Shown here piece by piece: positions 45,164 through 61,147 of a DNA stretch of 64,000 nucleotides. A program made the position numbers and the translations under genes. The notes below the pieces were generated by a model, which was not told the origin of the DNA, made no database searches, and saw only the letters and a program-made list of their open reading frames with translations. Source of the DNA: Bdellovibrionales bacterium (GTDB taxonomy: Bacteria; Bdellovibrionota; UBA1018); contig JAEUWC010000006.1 of NCBI GenBank assembly GCA_016786465.1, positions 1 through 64,000 on the forward strand. Direction: 5' to 3'. How positions within the stretch are numbered: position 1 is the stretch's first letter; each line of letters opens with the position of its first letter.

Positions 45164-46294
45164 TTGAAAAAGGGACCTAGGTTGAACTCCATTCTTACGT
45201 TTTGGATCACCTTGGGAACGGCGATTGGAGCCGTTTCACCATTAGCTTTTGCTCAAGATTCCTCGACCACCGTTTCGCCCGGAACCTTAGGAAATCGCCA
45301 ACCCATTAAGACCAGAAATATGGGTCGCTATCGCGGAAACGATAGCGTCGCCGGCGGAAGACGCATGCCATTGGCCTGCCCATCCGGAATGGTCCAAACC
45401 AGTTTTGGTTGTGCACGCGATCGACTCATGGCTGCTCCGATGGGCGGCCCACCGGCAGCGGCTCCCGCTCCTGCACCAGCCCCAGCACCTGCTCCCGCAG
45501 CTCCGGCCCCAGCGCCCGCCGCTGCACCAGCTCCAGCACCGGCACCCGCTGCTGCGCCTGCACCCGCTCCAGCACCTGCGGCTGCTGCTCCGGCCCCAGC
45601 GCCCGCCGCTGCACCAGCACCTGCGGCTGCTCCGGCAGCACCCCCAGCACCGCCTGCGCCTGCGGCACCGTCAGTTGCGTTTGATCCTGGAACGGGATGC
45701 GTTCCAGATCCTTCCATCGGAATGTATTGCCCAACGAGCGATCCAAGTGGTTACGGCGACGGCGGATGTTTCGTTGCTGGAACCCAGATCGAAATGGCAG
45801 ACGGAAGCTTCAAGGCGATCGAGACGATCCAAGAAGGCGAAAAAGTTCGATCTGCTTATGGCAAAATCAACACCGTCATACATCCGTTAGTGATTCAGTA
45901 TACCGGACGGGTCTATGGACTGAACGGAAGCAAAGCCTTCATCACGGCAAACCACCCGATTCTGACCCAACAGGGATGGAAGTCGTTTGATCCTAGTGCC
46001 ACCAAAAAAGAAATTCCAAGTTTGGAAGTGACACTTCTAGCGATTGGCGATTTGCTGATGAAAGCTTCGGGCGAAACTGAAAAACTCAAGTCAGTAAAGT
46101 CCGTTCGAAAATCCATCCAAGTTTATAACATGGAATTGGACGGTGACCACACCTACCGCGCGAATGGTTACGACGTTCACAATAAAGCCGATGCCGGTGG
46201 CAGCGGTGGTGGTGGTGGGTCGGCCTGCTGCAGCGACGTGTACGGTGACGGAAGGGTCATGGATTGCAGCGGTTGCATGTTGAACTTTATGTGA
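45164..46294 (+). CDS. Secreted Pro/Ala-rich protein with Hint (intein-like) domain
   Basis: The protein has 376 residues, TTG start, signal peptide ending at LAFA. Residues ~35-85 form a conserved block (NMGRYRGNDS, ACPSGMVQTSFGCARD) shared with the gene at 46868. Then comes a ~75-residue PAPAPA linker and a Hint domain at ~202-340: it starts with Cys202 (CFVAGTQIEMADG), includes the TANHP block-B-like His, and ends HN at 339-340. The residue after HN is Lys, not Cys/Ser/Thr, so splicing is unlikely but self-cleavage is possible. A 36-residue Gly/Cys-rich tail (ACCSD, DCSGC) follows. The role of the released piece is unknown. Confidence 0.8.
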   Translation: MKKGPRLNSILTFWITLGTAIGAVSPLAFAQDSSTTVSPGTLGNRQPIKTRNMGRYRGNDSVAGGRRMPLACPSGMVQTSFGCARDRLMAAPMGGPPAAAPAPAPAPAPAPAAPAPAPAAAPAPAPAPAAAPAPAPAPAAAAPAPAPAAAPAPAAAPAAPPAPPAPAAPSVAFDPGTGCVPDPSIGMYCPTSDPSGYGDGGCFVAGTQIEMADGSFKAIETIQEGEKVRSAYGKINTVIHPLVIQYTGRVYGLNGSKAFITANHPILTQQGWKSFDPSATKKEIPSLEVTLLAIGDLLMKASGETEKLKSVKSVRKSIQVYNMELDGDHTYRANGYDVHNKADAGGSGGGGGSACCSDVYGDGRVMDCSGCMLNFM

Positions 46295-51519: not shown

Positions 51520-52965
51520 TTACTTTTTTCCTTCTTCGGCTTCAGAGTCCTTCATTCCATCCATCACTTTTCCCGTCAGCGATTTCAAGCTAGGCATACC
51601 GCCTGCTGTTGCCGCAGGGGTACCTGCCTGCACGCCGTTCCAAGGAAACGATACGGCCAAGGGCTTTCCGTCTCGAAGATTCAGCGCCATTAAAGAAAGC
51701 GTAGGACTGTACATGATCCAAACCAATGCGGCACAAGTGATCCCCAAAGTGGGCATCACTGCCCTTGCGACCTGTGAAAAGGGCTTCTTGAAAACCGCGC
51801 TTGCCACGAAAAGGTTCGTTGCAACCGGTGGCATCAAATACCCAATTTCCATGTTCACCACGAAGACCACACCAAAGTGCAGCGGGTGAATTCCGAACAT
51901 TTCTTGGGCAACAGGAGCCAAAAGCGGAGCGAAAATCAGCGTCGCTGAAATCGAATCCATCAAGGCGCCCAAGACAATCAGAAGGACGTTCGTGATCAGC
52001 ATGAACTGCGCGGGGCTTGGGTTGATCTGCCGAATCAGATTCATGAACTTTTCCTGAACGTTCACCAGCGCCAAGAATTCGTTCAATCCAAAGGCAAGAA
52101 CGATGATCGGAAGAAGCGTGCCCATCAGTGCGCCAGCATCCATCAGTGCGCGAATAACCCCTTTAAGGTCCAGTTCGCCGTAAACCCAAATCACCAGGAA
52201 AAGACTGTACGCAACGGCGACTGCACCCGCTTGTGATGGCGTGTACCAACCTCCGTAAATTCCGCCTAAAACCAGAATCGGAAGAAAACAGGACCAAAGT
52301 CCTTCACGGGCCTTTTCACCCACTTCTTTCCAGGAAAATTTCGGGCGCTTTTCCTTCAGCCCTAAACCTACCCAAAAGCTGTAAACCGCCAACAGCCCAG
52401 CAATCAAGAAAGCTGGGACCAACCCTGCAAGAAAAAGATCGGATGGGTCAACCGCCGAAGCGCCGCTGACACTGATCGCATAAATCAGCATCGAAATGGA
52501 CGGAGGAACCAAGCACCCCAAACTTCCAGCCGTCGTAATCAAGCCCAGCGAAAAATTTTCAGGATACTTGTTCTGGGTCAGTGCAGGAACCATCATCGAA
52601 CCGACAGCGATCAAAGTCACCGGTGAAGACCCTGAAATCGCGGCAAAAAACATACACGCCGCCACAGCTGCAATCGCAAGCCCGCCTGGCATCCACCCTA
52701 GAAGGGCTCGCATCAAATCGACCAGGCGTTTAGCGATTCCGCCAGCGGTCATGATCGCCCCAGACGCCATGAACAAAGGAATCGCCAGAAATTCCTGCTT
52801 GGTCGCCAGATTTTCCATGTGCTGGACCAAAAGACGTAGGTCCTGCCATCCCTTCAGATCCGTAAAGAAAAGAAGGCTTAGACCGGTCATGACCCCAACA
52901 ATGGTGAAGAGCGGTGCACTGATTGCGACAAGCGCCAATAAAACCAGAATCAAGATGATGGTCAT
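51520..52965 (-). CDS. dctM: TRAP transporter large permease DctM
   Basis: The 481-residue protein has about 12 transmembrane segments and the DctM pattern (FLAIPLFMASGAIMTAGGIA, AAISGSSPVTLIAVGSMMVP, LGCLVPPSISMLIYAIS, MDSISATLIFAPLLAPVA). It moves the substrate with a sodium gradient together with DctQ and DctP. A ~75-residue extension after the last helix is unusual. Its ATG overlaps the dctQ stop by four bases. Confidence 0.93.
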   Translation of the reverse strand: MTIILILVLLALVAISAPLFTIVGVMTGLSLLFFTDLKGWQDLRLLVQHMENLATKQEFLAIPLFMASGAIMTAGGIAKRLVDLMRALLGWMPGGLAIAAVAACMFFAAISGSSPVTLIAVGSMMVPALTQNKYPENFSLGLITTAGSLGCLVPPSISMLIYAISVSGASAVDPSDLFLAGLVPAFLIAGLLAVYSFWVGLGLKEKRPKFSWKEVGEKAREGLWSCFLPILVLGGIYGGWYTPSQAGAVAVAYSLFLVIWVYGELDLKGVIRALMDAGALMGTLLPIIVLAFGLNEFLALVNVQEKFMNLIRQINPSPAQFMLITNVLLIVLGALMDSISATLIFAPLLAPVAQEMFGIHPLHFGVVFVVNMEIGYLMPPVATNLFVASAVFKKPFSQVARAVMPTLGITCAALVWIMYSPTLSLMALNLRDGKPLAVSFPWNGVQAGTPAATAGGMPSLKSLTGKVMDGMKDSEAEEGKK

Positions 52966-53765
52966 GCTCCGTCCTCCACAGTTGCCGTGCCCGCCATCGC
53001 ATCAATAGCGTCGACTTGAACTTTCTTGGTCCAGCCCATCGCACGACCGATGAAACGGAATGCCATCACTGCAAACGAATAAGGGATTACGGAATAAACC
53101 AACCACTTGGGCCAGTCGATGGACGGAATCAGTCCTGCGCCCGGACCCGAACGCCAATCCATAAAGTGATCCAAAACGGAAAGCTTTCCCAAAATTGCGA
53201 TAATTGCGCAAAAAATTCCGACGACCCAGCCTTGCACGACTGCGACGTGCGGCCGAAGATTTTTGGGCCAAAGTTTTTCGCCCATTTCCATCTGAAGATG
53301 TTGACCCGTGTAGGTCGCCATCGAAGCCCCTAGAAGTCCGACCCAAAGCAGACAGCTTAAGCCGAAATACGGGGACCAGATCAGACCCGACGGCATGAAC
53401 TTCACGAACAATCCTACGACCAAAATTAAGGCGACTTCTAACGCTAAAGCTTCTCCTAAAAGCCGCCCTAGCTTCTTCTTGGAAGCTGATTTCTTTACGG
53501 CCTTAGAAGAATTGCGGGTCTTCAATGCCCCGAAGCAAAGAACGAAAAGAATCAGTGAAAGGAAAAGCGGCATTCCTTTTTCAAGTTCTTCCGCCGACGT
53601 CTTCAGCGGACCCGACAGAATCACCGACAATCTTCCAGGGGATCTAGAAAAAATTCGATGAACCACGTCGACGAAAACCACTGCCGACATGGCTACGAAT
53701 AGCCAACCCACTGCTCGTTTTTCGAAGGAATACAGCTTTTGGTCGATCGTTTGGATCAATTTCAT
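52962..53765 (-). CDS. dctQ: TRAP transporter small permease DctQ
   Basis: The 267-residue protein has four core transmembrane segments. It is longer than the usual ~160-180 residues because of a Lys-rich insertion after the second segment (SKAVKKSASKKKLG) and added loops. It starts one base after the dctP stop. It forms the membrane complex with DctM. Confidence 0.85.
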   Translation of the reverse strand: MKLIQTIDQKLYSFEKRAVGWLFVAMSAVVFVDVVHRIFSRSPGRLSVILSGPLKTSAEELEKGMPLFLSLILFVLCFGALKTRNSSKAVKKSASKKKLGRLLGEALALEVALILVVGLFVKFMPSGLIWSPYFGLSCLLWVGLLGASMATYTGQHLQMEMGEKLWPKNLRPHVAVVQGWVVGIFCAIIAILGKLSVLDHFMDWRSGPGAGLIPSIDWPKWLVYSVIPYSFAVMAFRFIGRAMGWTKKVQVDAIDAMAGTATVEDGA

Positions 53766-54785
53766 CTATTTACCGCCCCGAATCTTCTTCAGTTCGGCCA
53801 AGGCCGTATCCAAAAGTGCCGATGCATCTTTACCGAAAGTCTTTCGGAAATCTTCATAGACGGGCTTAGTGGCAGTTTCAAAAGCTGCCTTTTCCGCCGC
53901 CGAAAGTTTCTTTACAGCGATTTTTTCGTACTCAAGAATTCCCAAAAGTTCAGGCTGAATCGCGCGGACGGCTTTTCGTCCCTTCACCTGCACCGATCGA
54001 CCTTCGTCGATCAAAATTTTCTGAATGTTTGCCGGAAGTTTTGAATACCATTCTTTGTTAAAGACGATGGCCGCAGGTTGATAAATGTGTTCTGAAATCG
54101 TGACGTGTTTCACGGATTTCTGCCAACCGGCTGCGATCATGTAAAGAAGGGCTTGGTCAAATCCGTCCACGTTTCCGGTCGCCAAGGCCTGCGGAACTTC
54201 CGTCGTTGGAATCGGTACTGCACTGGCGCCCAGGGCCTTGTACATCGCTAAGTGAACTGGGCTTTCCTGAGCCCGCATTTTCCGGCCCTTTAAGTCATCC
54301 GGCTTAGTCATGGCCTTGTCCCGGCTAGCGAACATTCGGTAACCGTTCTCGCTCCAGAATCCCAGAATCAACCCGCGGTCGCTGAAAAACTTTTCGTAGG
54401 GCTTGGTCAGCACCTTGTCGATGATTTTGTCGGCTTCGTCGGTGTTGCGAAAAATGAAAGGCAGTTCAACCAAGTTCACTTCAGGAACCTTGGTCGCTAG
54501 CGCACCAGTGGATGCTCCAACCGCTTGAATCTGCCCACGGCTGACTTTGGTGACCATTTCATTTTCGTCACCCAAAACGCCACCCAGCATGATTTTGACT
54601 TTCACTTTGCCTGCCGTTTTCTTTTCTACGGCTTCCTTGAATTGTTGAAGAAGCGCAGACCAAGGTGAATCGGCCGGAGCCACCGTTCCGATCGTCATGA
54701 TCGTTTCTTGCGACCATGAATTTGGAATGGAGATAGAAAGCGCGACAACCCAAGCGAAAGCCAATCGAGATATTTTGATTTGCAT
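53766..54785 (-). CDS. dctP: TRAP transporter substrate-binding protein DctP
   Basis: The protein has 339 residues from the ATG at 54785; a TTG at 54812 is also in frame. The signal peptide runs to NSWSQ. The DctP core is clear: IGTVAPADSPWSALLQQF, VLGDENEMVTKVSRGQIQ, the carboxylate-binding Arg in LKGRKMRAQE, and TTEVPQALATGNVDGFD. It should capture an organic acid in the periplasm; the substrate cannot be told. First gene of dctPQM-receiver. Confidence 0.95.
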   Translation of the reverse strand: MQIKISRLAFAWVVALSISIPNSWSQETIMTIGTVAPADSPWSALLQQFKEAVEKKTAGKVKVKIMLGGVLGDENEMVTKVSRGQIQAVGASTGALATKVPEVNLVELPFIFRNTDEADKIIDKVLTKPYEKFFSDRGLILGFWSENGYRMFASRDKAMTKPDDLKGRKMRAQESPVHLAMYKALGASAVPIPTTEVPQALATGNVDGFDQALLYMIAAGWQKSVKHVTISEHIYQPAAIVFNKEWYSKLPANIQKILIDEGRSVQVKGRKAVRAIQPELLGILEYEKIAVKKLSAAEKAAFETATKPVYEDFRKTFGKDASALLDTALAELKKIRGGK

Positions 54786-54822
54786 AATGGAAATTCTAAA
54801 CTGCTTTTGCAAATGAATGAAT

Positions 54823-56050: not shown

Positions 56051-56204
56051 ATGGAATAATTGTATATTTGACTCATTGCGTCTGGCGTGATTATGTTCAG
56101 TGACGCGGGCGGATTCAATCGACCTCATTGATGAAGGAAGATTAAGTACCTGACCCCCGCGCGTTACGGAATAACGGCGGCTTACTAAAAGTTTGCGAGA
56201 CGCG

Positions 56205-57920
56205 ATGAAGAAGTTTTTTGAGAAGTTGAGAACTGAAAAAAAGAATCAAGAAGCTCTCAGTAGCTCGCTTAGCCCTAAGCAACCATACCGCCTCGACAAA
56301 TATGTCGAGCCGATTGATTATTTTATCTCAATCGTTTTCGGTGTTGGAATCGTGCTTTTGGTACTTCGACCGACATTTCTTCAAACGCTTGCTATTTTTG
56401 CGCTCGATTCGGTTTTCTTCACGATCTTCCTAAAGTTGGATCTTTGGTACTTCAGAACTTTTCAACCTGGTTCGGAACTCATTCACCCGACACCTATTTG
56501 GCGGCAATTGTCAGACCAGATACTCGAAGAAAAGAAAGAGGAAATTTCCAGCTCATTTGAACGCTTTCTTAAACTGCGTCTACGCTTCATGATTGCCTTG
56601 AACATTTGCAAGGCATTTCCTTCCGTTGTTTTTGGACTCTACCTAATTTCTCCTGAAAAGTTGACCCTCGCCAATATTGGTTTTACTCATTTGGCACTTT
56701 TTCCACTGCATCTTTTTTACGCGGCCGCTACCTATTTGAACTGCATCCGAATCTTTAATCGCGAACGAAAAGAACTCAGCCGGCGAGTTACGCTCGTGTC
56801 CCTCGTCGAAAACACTGCTCCGACTTTCTTTTCGTCGATCAACATTACTCTACTTTCTTTGCTGCTTTCAACGGTGGGACTGCAACTCGTGGTGGCCTAC
56901 AGCCAAGTAACGGTCTTGCCCTCAGAACAATCGGCGTTTTGGCTTGCAATTAATTCAGGTGCGATGTGCTTCATCCTAGCACTAAGACTTTGGTTTCAGG
57001 CACAGACGACGTTCGAAGGTCAACTCAATGAAATTATCGCAGAAATTCGCTCTCGCGGCTTGAGCTCGACAGGAATCCCTGTTGAAACTCCTTCAATAGA
57101 TACCTTTCATAGCTTAGCCAGCGAGATAAACCATCTGTTTAAGCGGATTAGCCAGAATGAAATTGACCTAACCGAAGCAAATTTTAGAAGAGCAGATGCC
57201 GTCAAGTTTGAAACACTTGGAGAAATCACCGCTCTCGTCGCGCATGACCTAAGTGGGCCACTCCATGCCGTCAGATTTTATTCTGACGAAATTTCGGAAA
57301 AATCGGACGATCCCGTCATTAAAAATCTTAGTACTAAGGCTCGATTGAACTCAGACCGTGCCGTCGAACTTCTCCACGCGTTAAAGCTAAGAGTACGGAA
57401 TCCGAACCCTTCTGCCGGGGAAAAATCTATTTCAGTCCTCGAGGCACACCAAATGGTTGTGACGCTTTTGGAAACCCAGTTTAGAGGATCGACTTTAGAC
57501 AAGATCAAGTTTGAGTTTGAGCCAGCATTGGCGAGCGTCTATTGCAGTTTAGCAACTACCGACCTACTGCATGTCCTCGACAACATCTATAGAAACTCAG
57601 TGACTCACTTCATTCGCGATTGCGGCGGAGCAGGCACGGTATTCACTCGCATTGCACAACAAAACAGCAACTCAAAAGTCGTGTTAGCCATCGCAGATGA
57701 CGGGCATGGCTTGAGCGTTAGAGACTTTGAAGAAAAAATTGAATCGGGCCGTGGTCTGGGCCTTAAACTTACCAAGCGCCTCATTGAAAAAAGTGGGGGC
57801 ACATTTGGATTACTAACGGATTCTGCAACCCCAGGGACAACTTTCATTCTAGAACTTCCCCTAGCACAAACAACGGGGAAGCAAGGTACTAACCCGGTTC
57901 TGGAGATTGAAAACCGCTAA
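56205..57920 (+). CDS. Membrane-bound sensor histidine kinase
   Basis: The protein has about 571 residues from the ATG at 56205; a TTG at 56193 is also in frame. Around six hydrophobic segments fill residues ~35-270 with hardly any periplasmic domain, so the signal is likely sensed in the membrane. The H box is LVAHDLSGPLHAV with His347, the N box DNIYRNSVTH, and the ATP lid IADDGHGL ... GRGLGLKLTKRL. The codons (GAG, AGA, CTC more frequent) differ from the surrounding genes. The regulator gene follows one base after the stop, so both form a two-component pair. Confidence 0.88.
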   Translation: MKKFFEKLRTEKKNQEALSSSLSPKQPYRLDKYVEPIDYFISIVFGVGIVLLVLRPTFLQTLAIFALDSVFFTIFLKLDLWYFRTFQPGSELIHPTPIWRQLSDQILEEKKEEISSSFERFLKLRLRFMIALNICKAFPSVVFGLYLISPEKLTLANIGFTHLALFPLHLFYAAATYLNCIRIFNRERKELSRRVTLVSLVENTAPTFFSSINITLLSLLLSTVGLQLVVAYSQVTVLPSEQSAFWLAINSGAMCFILALRLWFQAQTTFEGQLNEIIAEIRSRGLSSTGIPVETPSIDTFHSLASEINHLFKRISQNEIDLTEANFRRADAVKFETLGEITALVAHDLSGPLHAVRFYSDEISEKSDDPVIKNLSTKARLNSDRAVELLHALKLRVRNPNPSAGEKSISVLEAHQMVVTLLETQFRGSTLDKIKFEFEPALASVYCSLATTDLLHVLDNIYRNSVTHFIRDCGGAGTVFTRIAQQNSNSKVVLAIADDGHGLSVRDFEEKIESGRGLGLKLTKRLIEKSGGTFGLLTDSATPGTTFILELPLAQTTGKQGTNPVLEIENR

Positions 57921-57921
57921 A

Positions 57922-58623
57922 ATGTCGAATGATTCTCGAAACCTTATTTGGATCCTTGAAGACGACCCCGAGTGCGTAGAAATCTATAAACACATGCTCG
58001 GTGAAAAGTACGCTCTTGAGATCTTTGGCTTGATTTTGGAATTCAAGGCGGCACTCAAGAACTCAAAAAAAAAGCCTGACCTTCTTGTCACAGACCTTCG
58101 ACTACCTGATGGGAATTTTTTGGACTACTTAACGGGGTCAGACGACCGCTCTCTTCCATCTTGTCCGCTACTGGTCGTATCGTCTTTAGACGACCAATCG
58201 ATGCTTGAAACTGCCTATGCCGAGGGTGCTTTGGATTATTTGATCAAGCCATTCCGGAAGACGGAAGCCCTAGTAAAAATCAGTAGGCACTTAGATTCTG
58301 GAAAAAGTAAAATTGAGAGCTTCGGTTACAGCCTAGATCATTTTAAACATGGGCTTACTAAGAATGGCTCCCTAGTTGTTGGTTTGACACCGAAGGAACA
58401 GCAGATTTTTGCAGTACTTCAATCGCACAATCGCGAAGGAATCACCAAGTCAGATATTGTTCGTATCGCGTGGTCAGGTCAGGTAATGTACGAGAAATCT
58501 TTTGACGTTCACCTGTTCAATCTTCGAAAAAAACTTCGTGAGTACACGAATCTAACTATCCTTCAAATAGCGGGTGGCCGATATCAATTGGCACTATCCG
58601 ATGGGGTGAAGAAGCCCGACTGA
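57922..58623 (+). CDS. OmpR/PhoB-type response regulator
   Basis: The 233-residue protein has a receiver domain with acidic pair (ILEDDPE), phosphoacceptor Asp58 (VTDLRLPDG), and Lys in LIKPF. The C-terminal winged helix has LTPKEQQIFAVLQ, then FDVHLFNLRKKL as recognition helix and GGRYQL as wing. The ATG at 57922 is chosen over a TTG at 57907 inside the kinase gene. The last 30 bases overlap the converging YcaO-like gene. Confidence 0.9.
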   Translation: MSNDSRNLIWILEDDPECVEIYKHMLGEKYALEIFGLILEFKAALKNSKKKPDLLVTDLRLPDGNFLDYLTGSDDRSLPSCPLLVVSSLDDQSMLETAYAEGALDYLIKPFRKTEALVKISRHLDSGKSKIESFGYSLDHFKHGLTKNGSLVVGLTPKEQQIFAVLQSHNREGITKSDIVRIAWSGQVMYEKSFDVHLFNLRKKLREYTNLTILQIAGGRYQLALSDGVKKPD

Positions 58624-59559
58624 TAATAACTGTCCCACAGTATTAAGACCCGGGATCGTAGGACATTCTGAGATCAGTTTCTTAAAAAAAGGACTTTCGT
58701 GATCGTACCCGAAGATTAACGGGATTGCGCGCTGATGCTCAGCTCTCCAAACTTCAATCCGGAAATTTTTTTCCAATTTTTCAGATCCGAGAAACTGGTA
58801 CTCAAAACCATTTTGGATTTTATGACTGAAGAACTCTTTGATCGTCTTATCAAAAGACCATGTGGCATTTCCATTCAACCAATCGAAAATTAATCGAAGC
58901 CCTTCGCGAGTCAGAAACAGGTCTTGTTGGAAATCCGGAGTTGGTAAAACTTTGGAAGGCAAGGGTTCAAGATTGAGGTCATTCAGCATCATCCATCGCT
59001 GAAATGCCTCTTTTTTTGCGCGCACGACACTTCTCTCGGTGGTCTCGTCGCACGCAAAACCAAATACGGGAACGCGCCGAGTAGAAGCAGAGGTTGGAAA
59101 CCCAAAGACTCCAGACACTCCTTGCCCAAAATCATATGCCGACCAGGTCCACTCGGACGATTGCGGAAGACCAACCGCAACGTAGGCATCGTTCAACTTT
59201 CTTGGCGGGATACCCGAGTACCAAGCCCAAAGAACCCTGTGCCGTTCAATCAGTTCAAATCTTGCTCGTTTGCGGGCACTTTCTGCAGTCAGTGCAGCGG
59301 CCACTCCGTTTGAGAATGACCTGCGTGCCGTGGATCCACGACCATGGCTATCAAGAGGTTTATTTCTCTGAACAATCCGTCTTTCTGCAATCTCAATACT
59401 TGAAATAAGGGCCGCCTCTTCCTGTGCAGAACGCAAATCGGAACTACGCGAGAACCCAACGCCCACCAACTCGCTGCCGCAAAAAATTTCGCTTTGACCG
59501 CACAGAACGGAATGCACGCCCCCCTCTTCATGCACGAAGAAATCTGGCTCGTTTGCCAA
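58594..59559 (-). CDS. YcaO-like enzyme
   Basis: The 321-residue protein starts with TTG, 4 bp after the upstream stop. The key block is SFSNGVAAALTAESARKRAR followed by FELIERH (Glu102, Glu105, Arg106). This is the ATP/Mg-binding signature of YcaO proteins (S-N-G-x-A-x-G ... E-x-x-ER). A second YcaO-type helix is ERSVVRAKKEAFQRW. YcaO enzymes activate amide backbones of peptides with ATP to make azolines, thioamides or amidines. The protein is shorter than most (~400) and has no TfuA or E1-like partner in the window. The substrate is unknown. Confidence 0.7.
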   Translation of the reverse strand: MANEPDFFVHEEGGVHSVLCGQSEIFCGSELVGVGFSRSSDLRSAQEEAALISSIEIAERRIVQRNKPLDSHGRGSTARRSFSNGVAAALTAESARKRARFELIERHRVLWAWYSGIPPRKLNDAYVAVGLPQSSEWTWSAYDFGQGVSGVFGFPTSASTRRVPVFGFACDETTERSVVRAKKEAFQRWMMLNDLNLEPLPSKVLPTPDFQQDLFLTREGLRLIFDWLNGNATWSFDKTIKEFFSHKIQNGFEYQFLGSEKLEKNFRIEVWRAEHQRAIPLIFGYDHESPFFKKLISECPTIPGLNTVGQLLSVGLLHPIG

Positions 59560-59563
59560 TGAA

Positions 59564-60214
59564 CTATTTCCTATCTGTAACGACGTGACTGTCCAAAAAA
59601 GCCTGGGTCAACTTGGATGCATCTTCAATGAAAGATATCAGTTCCTCTCGCTTTTCCTTCTCGGAAAAATAGAATTCAGCGATGCCAATATCTTCTTGAA
59701 CATGCCTTTTGTCAGTCTCGACGTGATTGTAAACTGCGGAAATGTCGTCAGTCTTAAGAGAGTTCCCAGGCAAGTACGGAGACATCTGCTCTCCTGCGAC
59801 AACGGTAAATGCCTCAGACCAAATCATATAGCCGACAAAAAACTCTGGTCTCTCTAATGCCGCATTTCGAGCAAACTTCATTAGGCGCACTGCGGCCGGC
59901 GATGGCTCTTTCCCCGTAGAGTTCAACCGCTTCAGGTCGTTTTCAGCCCATAAGTCGTGGCCGATTTCCTCTGCTATTTTTTCTTCCATGAAATTTGCCA
60001 AGCGCAAATCGCCACGACGATTTGCCGCTTCTCGAGCGGATTTGATGTGTGGAATGGATTCACCGAGAATCCACTTAATGTCCGATAAATAACTTTTGAG
60101 CGATTCCTTAGACAACAGCCCGCTCCGAATCGCTTGTATAAAGGCGCTATTGTCAATAACTCGTTGACTAATACGATTTACTGCCTGGGTCAGATCAATT
60201 GATACAGCCGACAT
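59564..60214 (-). CDS. Heme-oxygenase-like diiron oxidase / TENA-PqqC-fold protein
   Basis: The 216-residue all-helical protein has the metal-site pattern of heme-oxygenase-like diiron proteins: EEIGHDLW (Glu83, His86), Glu134 in IWSEAFTVVAGEQ, and the late helix YNHVETDKRHVQE (His164, Asp168, His171). Members carry out oxidative decarboxylation, N-oxygenation or ring chemistry on small molecules or on modified peptides. AGGAAG lies 8 bases before the ATG. It sits between the GNAT and YcaO-like genes, so it probably acts on the same product. Confidence 0.75.
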   Translation of the reverse strand: MSAVSIDLTQAVNRISQRVIDNSAFIQAIRSGLLSKESLKSYLSDIKWILGESIPHIKSAREAANRRGDLRLANFMEEKIAEEIGHDLWAENDLKRLNSTGKEPSPAAVRLMKFARNAALERPEFFVGYMIWSEAFTVVAGEQMSPYLPGNSLKTDDISAVYNHVETDKRHVQEDIGIAEFYFSEKEKREELISFIEDASKLTQAFLDSHVVTDRK

Positions 60215-60244
60215 AGTTCTTGCTTCCTAGTTTCAATTTTTGAT

Positions 60245-60270
60245 TTGAGGCATCCGCGGCTACCTCAAAT
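60245..60270 (-). promoter_or_regulatory. Hairpin between the GNAT and heme-oxygenase-like genes
   Basis: On the minus strand TTTGAGG and CCTCAAA form a 7-bp stem around a 12-base loop with an inner CCGCGG. No T run follows in the minus direction, so it looks like an mRNA processing or attenuation hairpin rather than a strong terminator. Confidence 0.35.
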
Positions 60271-60288
60271 TCTTTCTAAAGATTCAGC

Positions 60289-60321
60289 TTAGGTACAAAT
60301 TTTTGCGTATTTCTTTTTCAT
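60289..60321 (-). CDS. Possible 10-residue leader ORF
   Basis: The reading frame is MKKKYAKICT followed by TAA. Its ATG overlaps the GNAT stop as ATGA, and GGAAAGGGGGG, 5 bases upstream, is the strongest ribosome site in the operon. It is followed by the hairpin. It may be a translational coupling or leader peptide; it is very short for a RiPP precursor. Could be chance. Confidence 0.25.
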   Translation of the reverse strand: MKKKYAKICT

Positions 60322-60998
60322 TGTGCCCCCCTTTCCGCTTCCTTGAATGGAATTTTCGTATTTGTAAAATGTCGGGAAGTAAACGCGTCGTCATTGCGAA
60401 AGGTCTTGGAGAAATTTAGGAGAACACCCCATCGATCGGTCACTTCCATCCCAGTGATCCGATAGCCCAGTTTGGAAACCGACATGAAGCTTGGAATGTT
60501 CATTGGGGAAATCTGACCGTTGATCCGCGCAACGGATTTAGAACTTAAGAATTTTTCAACGCCTCGAAAAAAGGAGATGTACCTTTCACCTGATTGAAAG
60601 TCAGGCAAGATCATTGCAAACCGAACGTAGTAACTGCTCCAATCCGAGATGTTTCCTAGAAAAACGCCCACCAACCGGCCTTCTGAAAATAGACCAAAAA
60701 AGTCTCCCACTAATCGATAGAAGGCTTCTCGTCGCTCAGCAAGGTTAGCTTCGGGATCGTGGCTTACTGTCCTCCCCGAAAAGCACCTTTCAGTATTGTC
60801 CCTAATAAACTGTGATGCCTCTTCATACGAAATGACTTCGATGCGCTCTCCGTTGGGAAGCGCGATCGGAAAAAGTTCGCTCCAGTTAAACTGGAAGACG
60901 ACTTCGGTCATGGATTTCGACGAAGAAGGTTTGGATCCAACGGTTGAAGAAGGGTTCGACGAAATCAAAGGATCGTGAAAGGTCTGAGGCGTGCCCAT
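60318..60998 (-). CDS. GNAT-fold N-acyltransferase-like protein
   Basis: The protein has about 226 residues. The start at 60998 is favoured because GGAGG lies 5 bases upstream of this ATG; the ATG at 61010 lies before that site. GNAT-style elements are visible in the second half: DFFGLFSEGRLVGVFLGN strand pair, then RGVEKFLSSKSVARINGQIS and MNIPSFMSVSKLGYRITGME, which fits the conserved Asn and the late helix-strand. The Q/RxxGxG/A acetyl-CoA loop is weak. It is the first gene of the three-gene operon. Confidence 0.6.
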   Translation of the reverse strand: MGTPQTFHDPLISSNPSSTVGSKPSSSKSMTEVVFQFNWSELFPIALPNGERIEVISYEEASQFIRDNTERCFSGRTVSHDPEANLAERREAFYRLVGDFFGLFSEGRLVGVFLGNISDWSSYYVRFAMILPDFQSGERYISFFRGVEKFLSSKSVARINGQISPMNIPSFMSVSKLGYRITGMEVTDRWGVLLNFSKTFRNDDAFTSRHFTNTKIPFKEAERGAQ

Positions 60999-61147
60999 CG
61001 AATCCTCCATGATTCGGTGAAAGACTTAATCATCCTTCAAGAGCCGCTCCGCACTCAACAACCTAAGAAAACTTAAATCGTTGATGTTGAAAATTTGACG
61101 GACCCGAAAAAGCACTCTGCATTGATTACGTAAGTATTTGTATTTAT

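Follow-up and report, generated by a model that had tools for sequence, protein, structure and literature searches.

The question raised by the first 64,000 nucleotides of contig JAEUWC010000006.1 from a Bdellovibrionales bacterium (assembly GCA_016786465.1, a genome of 3.6 Mb; this whole stretch is called the window below) is what a YcaO-like, a heme-oxygenase-like (HO-like) and a GNAT-like enzyme, encoded in one tight operon, make together. An earlier note on this DNA had inferred that the three enzymes produce an unusual tailored product. However, that note overlooked a conserved gene of ten codons (the micro-gene) and a hairpin, both lying in the 103 bp between the GNAT-like and HO-like genes. 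The modified-peptide part of the inference is well supported, because a conserved precursor gene was found, whereas the HO-like enzyme is not universal, five of the related loci carrying a B12-binding radical S-adenosylmethionine (radical-SAM) enzyme. The locus is probably a compact cluster for a new family of very small ribosomally synthesized and post-translationally modified peptides (RiPPs), with a 10-residue precursor and a standalone YcaO enzyme. The operon comprises the following features:

60318..61010, minus strand: GNAT-like gene, first gene of the operon
60326..60334, minus strand: AAAGGGGGG, purine-rich ribosome-binding site of the micro-gene
60289..60321, minus strand: micro-gene of 10 codons, between the GNAT-like and HO-like genes
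60243..60270, minus strand: hairpin with a 10-bp stem, between the micro-gene and the HO-like gene
59564..60214, minus strand: HO-like gene, between the micro-gene and the YcaO gene
58594..59559, minus strand: YcaO gene, last enzyme gene

The micro-gene (ATG AAA AAG AAA TAC GCA AAA ATT TGT ACC TAA) encodes MKKKYAKICT, and its ATG overlaps the stop codon of the GNAT-like gene (ATGA). Phylum-wide searches covered 369 Bdellovibrionota genomes, in which true homologues of the window YcaO were found in 16 genomes from 16 genera; a YcaO scan gave Bdellovibrionales bacterium RIFOXYD1_FULL_55_31 as a relative. A micro-gene of the motif M-[KR]-x-[KRQ]-[FY]-A-x-x-[C/S/T]-x-stop is present in all 15 homologous loci with contig coverage (the window and 14 others). 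The counterparts of the window peptide are MKKKFAQHCL, MKKQFALICF, MKKKFAQISF, MKIKFAAICF, MRKKYAHASM, MKKKFAQLSF, MKKRFAQSCI, MKKKFALLSF, MRRKFALYSF, MKKRYALVTW, MKKRYATLSF, MKKRYATISF, MMKKFAQYCI and, in one locus (G129), the nine-residue MKKYGFVTV, whose penultimate residue is Thr. In 15/15 peptides the penultimate position holds Cys, Ser or Thr, with Ser seven times, Cys six times and Thr once at residue 9 of the 14 ten-residue peptides. Ala6 is invariant among the ten-residue peptides and is encoded by GCA, GCC or GCG, residue 9 is encoded by unrelated codons (AGC, TCA or TCT for Ser9), and the stop codon is TAA or TAG; since these codons vary, selection acts on the protein and not on the codons. 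An AAGG/GGAG-type site stands ahead of the ATG in 15/15 loci. The next gene after the micro-gene is always the YcaO gene or the first of the HO-like/YcaO pair (15/15 loci), and the one just before it is a GNAT-family gene in all 14 loci that have an adjacent one.

The conservation of the micro-gene is far beyond chance. Indeed, although some of the loci tested had also served to define the motif, (i) a degenerate DNA pattern joining the Shine-Dalgarno site and the motif gave eight matches in the 369 genomes, seven at these loci and one inside uvrA, (ii) the reversed pattern gave no match in the same genomes, (iii) all 14 occurrences of the protein motif in 259 kb of locus DNA are the micro-gene, and (iv) the motif is absent from 16 loci of other YcaO families in the same phylum. 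An encoded candidate precursor beside modifying enzymes, the arrangement expected of a RiPP, is therefore present in 15 loci. No description of this cluster or motif was found in the open-licence literature. Other YcaO genes in the same family (L010 and L011, in genomes G032 and G018) stand beside apparent oligopeptide-binding ATP-binding cassette substrate-binding proteins, and the micro-gene motif was not found at these two loci (L021 and L027 in the motif search).

The recurrent block consists of a GNAT gene, the micro-gene, an optional HO-like gene, the YcaO gene and an adjoining membrane histidine kinase gene, mostly with an OmpR-type regulator gene, convergent with the YcaO gene. The earlier proposal depended on the three enzyme genes staying together in relatives, and YcaO, HO-like and GNAT-like genes do occur together in eight loci; the 4-bp gap that it gave between the HO-like and YcaO genes is also correct. 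In the G005 locus, the GNAT gene is exchanged for a gene of a different, RimJ-type acetyltransferase. No relatives were found on plasmids, and the region has no Rfam match.

The protein encoded at 58594-59559, which had been read as YcaO-like, matches the YcaO family (PF02624, 36 bits, E = 6.5e-9, Pfam cut-off 25.7) and holds the stretches SFSNGVAAAL and FELIERH. In an alignment of 15 family sequences, E56, E59, R60, E102, E105, R106, E184 and Q187 are invariant and N84 is nearly so; the conserved YcaO ATP/Mg residues (ExxER, NG...ExxER, ExxQ) are thus retained in the family, whereas a Ser four residues ahead of E56 is not conserved. A profile of the 15 homologues matches, in PDB, TruD (2.6e-9), MJ1094 (5.9e-9), McbD (1e-4) and also MusD and LynD, and the nine best fold matches of an AlphaFold2 model of low confidence (pLDDT 41) are McbD and E. 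coli YcaO. The absence of TfuA, previously noted for the window, extends to the whole genome, and no TfuA match (PF07812) was obtained in any of the 16 genomes with homologues of the window YcaO. Among the conserved neighbours, there is no family corresponding to the E1-like/RiPP recognition element (RRE) partner or to the flavin dehydrogenase of a canonical linear azol(in)e cluster. A second, separate and canonical-looking YcaO cluster is encoded elsewhere in the same genome (contig C27:39424-42511; L072:5425-8512): it includes a PqqD-like protein, a YcaO protein and a nitroreductase-family (SagB-like) protein among glycosyltransferase-like genes, as well as a possible precursor, namely a protein with a C-terminal Peptidase_S74 chaperone domain behind a Gly/Ser linker.

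The HO-like metal pattern reported for the 59564-60214 protein is complete: E83-x2-H86, E134 and H164-x3-D168-x2-H171, the six ligands of an HO-like diiron oxidase, are all invariant in nine homologues. The ligand spacing of UndA matches this pattern (E-x2-H, E, H-x3-D-x2-H). Searched alone, the window protein matches PF14518 weakly (E = 4e-4, below the cut-off); this family is matched by five of the nine homologues (best 8.3e-10), and the profile of the nine matches PDB entry 3dde (2.6e-17) far more strongly than UndA and CADD. The fold matches of its AlphaFold2 model (pLDDT 48) are meaningless, and a protein search of the genome contigs with the HO-like protein gave no match. On this sequence evidence, the protein is proposed to be a heme-oxygenase-like diiron oxidase with an O2-dependent tailoring role.

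The HO-like gene occurs in nine loci and a B12-binding radical-SAM gene, beside the GNAT gene, in five; both together occur in none (Fisher p = 0.0005, relatedness ignored). Genome-wide, the radical-SAM orthologue is present in no HO-type genome, and the sole close HO-like relative in a radical-SAM-type genome (G119, L077:3805-4473) is unlinked, lies beside a serC-like aminotransferase gene and, on inspection of its translation, has lost all of the metal ligands. Families f1 and f9 each contain both types, and parsimony gives four to five changes on YcaO and concatenated trees that are weak and poorly resolved. Residue 7 is Gln, Lys or His in seven of the eight HO-type ten-residue peptides and Leu, Ala or Thr in 5/5 radical-SAM-type peptides (p = 0.005, post hoc), a split that may mark the tailored residue or be due to chance. 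The O2-dependent diiron oxidase and the B12-radical-SAM enzyme appear to be alternatives acting on the same peptide; the exchange of two such enzymes has a precedent in AcsF and BchE of chlorophyll synthesis. In one genome (G121, L056:4467-6652), a second GNAT-like gene and a hybrid histidine kinase/response regulator gene are encoded just past the radical-SAM gene.

The assignment of the 60318 protein to the GNAT family holds at the family level, Acetyltransf_1 being matched by nine of the 11 family members; searched singly, the window protein gave no GNAT match. The acetyl-CoA loop Q/R-x-x-G-x-G/A is not retained in the window copy, which reads QSGERY.

Taken together as a very small RiPP pathway, these elements suggest the following scheme. 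The 10-residue MKKKYAKICT, with no separate long leader, would be the precursor, and its basic start M-K-K-K-[FY]-A is probably the recognition element. Cys, Ser and Thr are the residues heterocyclised by YcaO cyclodehydratases; with ATP, the standalone YcaO would cyclise the penultimate Cys, Ser or Thr (here Cys9) onto the preceding amide, giving a thiazoline or a (methyl)oxazoline. Oxidative tailoring would come next, by the O2-dependent HO-like diiron oxidase here and, in other species, by the B12-radical-SAM enzyme. For the GNAT-like protein, the probable role is acetylation of a peptide amine, an assignment that is weak because the acetyl-CoA loop is degenerate in the window copy. Finally, the adjacent two-component system would control the operon and may sense the product. 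The features of the window that bear on this control are:

61062..61076, minus strand: TTAAGTTTTCTTAGG, degenerate copy of TTAAN6YTAAC with 2 mismatches, possible regulator site
57907..58623, plus strand: OmpR-type response regulator gene, convergent with the YcaO gene and overlapping it
56193..57920, plus strand: membrane histidine kinase gene

The kinase and regulator genes (56193-58623, plus strand), convergent with the YcaO gene, are part of the conserved block, and the pair is more constant across loci than the HO-like gene. The kinase (HATPase_c 3.8e-12, HisKA 0.0055) has about five hydrophobic N-terminal segments, and wherever a locus extends far enough, a kinase gene adjoins the YcaO gene. 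The regulator (Response_reg 3.2e-12, Trans_reg_C 4.3e-7) is kept in related loci; it precedes the kinase in G118 and is found beyond the GNAT gene in G335. An exact direct repeat, TTAAN6YTAAC, occurs upstream of the operon in 6/12 loci (0.09 expected in shuffles), a count to be read knowing that the repeat was recognised by eye in the very sequences counted; G335 has a further copy just upstream of its response-regulator gene. The spacing of the repeat suits an OmpR-type regulator, of which it is possibly a binding site. A hairpin follows the micro-gene in 15/15 loci (mean z -3.7 against dinucleotide shuffles, -1.1 in the window), with a T-run behind it in about six. It may be a leaky terminator in some loci and an mRNA stabiliser in others, which would suit a precursor made in excess over its enzymes.

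The same short open reading frame followed by a hairpin, in 15/15 loci and in about six with a T-run, is also what would be expected if the micro-gene encoded a regulatory leader peptide, on which ribosome stalling and the following hairpin would adjust downstream expression, the peptide not being a substrate. Drug-sensing leader peptides of comparable length are known. This explanation is nevertheless improbable, since the micro-gene sits behind the first gene and not ahead of the operon, most of the hairpins have no T-run and cannot terminate, and the hairpin of the window leaves the next ribosome-binding site uncovered. Furthermore, the micro-gene goes with this one YcaO family and is missing from other YcaO loci, and the use of unrelated codons for Cys, Ser or Thr at residue 9 fits the nucleophile of an enzymatic reaction and not codon sensing. 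That the YcaO product on the micro-peptide might be not an azoline but a backbone thioamide, like those of thiovarsolin and methyl-coenzyme M reductase, is suggested by the family profile, which matches the archaeal YcaO MJ1094 almost as well as TruD, and by the HO-like oxidase that accompanies YcaO in thiovarsolin (PMC6511847). The absence of TfuA from the 16 genomes argues against this route, and TfuA-type thioamidation was rejected on that ground; moreover, thioamide formation does not depend on Ser, Cys or Thr, although every peptide has one of these three in the penultimate position, so that this outcome is equally doubtful. The enzymes could also act on another substrate, either a small molecule or a ribosomal protein, the micro-gene being linked to them merely by a shared operon: E. 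coli YcaO carries the annotation of an accessory factor in the methylthiolation of ribosomal protein S12, and the GNAT relatives in PDB include ribosomal-protein acetyltransferases. This is likewise improbable, since the peptide is retained both in the loci where a radical-SAM gene takes the place of the HO-like gene and in G005, where a RimJ-type GNAT takes the place of the usual one.

Several observations also weigh against the small-RiPP interpretation itself. The N-terminal motif of the window YcaO is without the Ser of the usual SxxxE pattern, and this protein is the most divergent of the YcaO set; the AlphaFold2 models of the YcaO and HO-like proteins are both of low confidence, and about half of the GNAT copies have a degenerate acetyl-CoA loop. 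Among the genes examined, no protease, exporter, E1-like partner or RRE domain is encoded in the cluster, and the resolution of the trees is too poor for counting independent swaps between HO-like and radical-SAM enzymes. A small RiPP made by a standalone YcaO remains the preferred interpretation. Within it, a self-contained peptide signalling system can be put forward tentatively, in which the modified 10-mer would be sensed by the adjacent multi-pass histidine kinase, after maturation by interchangeable O2-dependent and O2-independent enzymes matched to residue 7; this would give a phylum with predatory members a candidate peptide signal. An Agr-type thiolactone pheromone was rejected in view of the penultimate position of the Cys or Ser. 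Elsewhere in the window, three minus-strand genes (51520-54812) resemble those for the binding protein and the two membrane subunits, large and small, of a TRAP transporter, with the kinase gene adjoining and a porin-like gene opposite them; their linkage to the YcaO module was seen nowhere else. A protein with a Hint/pretoxin-Hint type domain is encoded at 45164-46294.

The nearest characterised pathway is that of thiovarsolin (VarA, the YcaO protein VarY, the TfuA protein VarT and the HO-like VarO). It, too, is a RiPP cluster that encodes a YcaO together with an HO-like enzyme and has no protease of its own; VarO is required for dehydrogenation, and the products are N-acetylated (PMC6511847). 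It differs in that VarA is a repeating precursor, against 10 residues here, and in that VarY and TfuA form a thioamide, whereas TfuA is absent here, where linked genes encode a dedicated GNAT-like protein and a two-component system. The cyclodehydratases of linear azol(in)e peptides and cyanobactins (McbD, TruD, LynD, SagD) share the YcaO family and a Cys, Ser or Thr target in a peptide, but here no E1-like/ocin-ThiF partner, RRE or flavin dehydrogenase is found in the cluster and the precursor is minimal, a candidate leader-poor YcaO substrate small enough for synthesis. Biarylitides also have an extremely short precursor gene, of 5 codons (18 bp), missed by automatic annotation (PMC13417212, PMC12951456); theirs leads to a cytochrome P450 cross-link, whereas a YcaO is the core enzyme for the 10-codon gene described here. 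Gene annotation overlooks precursors of about ten codons, so that whole RiPP families can stay hidden, and the present one, conserved across several Bdellovibrionota families, is such a case. As regards HO-like oxidases acting on ribosomal peptides, a 2026 review cites the thiovarsolin work (PMC13108848). The HO-like dimetal oxidases (UndA, CADD and others), covered in this review, resemble the present enzyme in the six-ligand pattern and in profile similarity, but here the substrate is apparently a ribosomal micro-peptide, on which a B12-radical-SAM enzyme appears able to take the place of the diiron oxidase.

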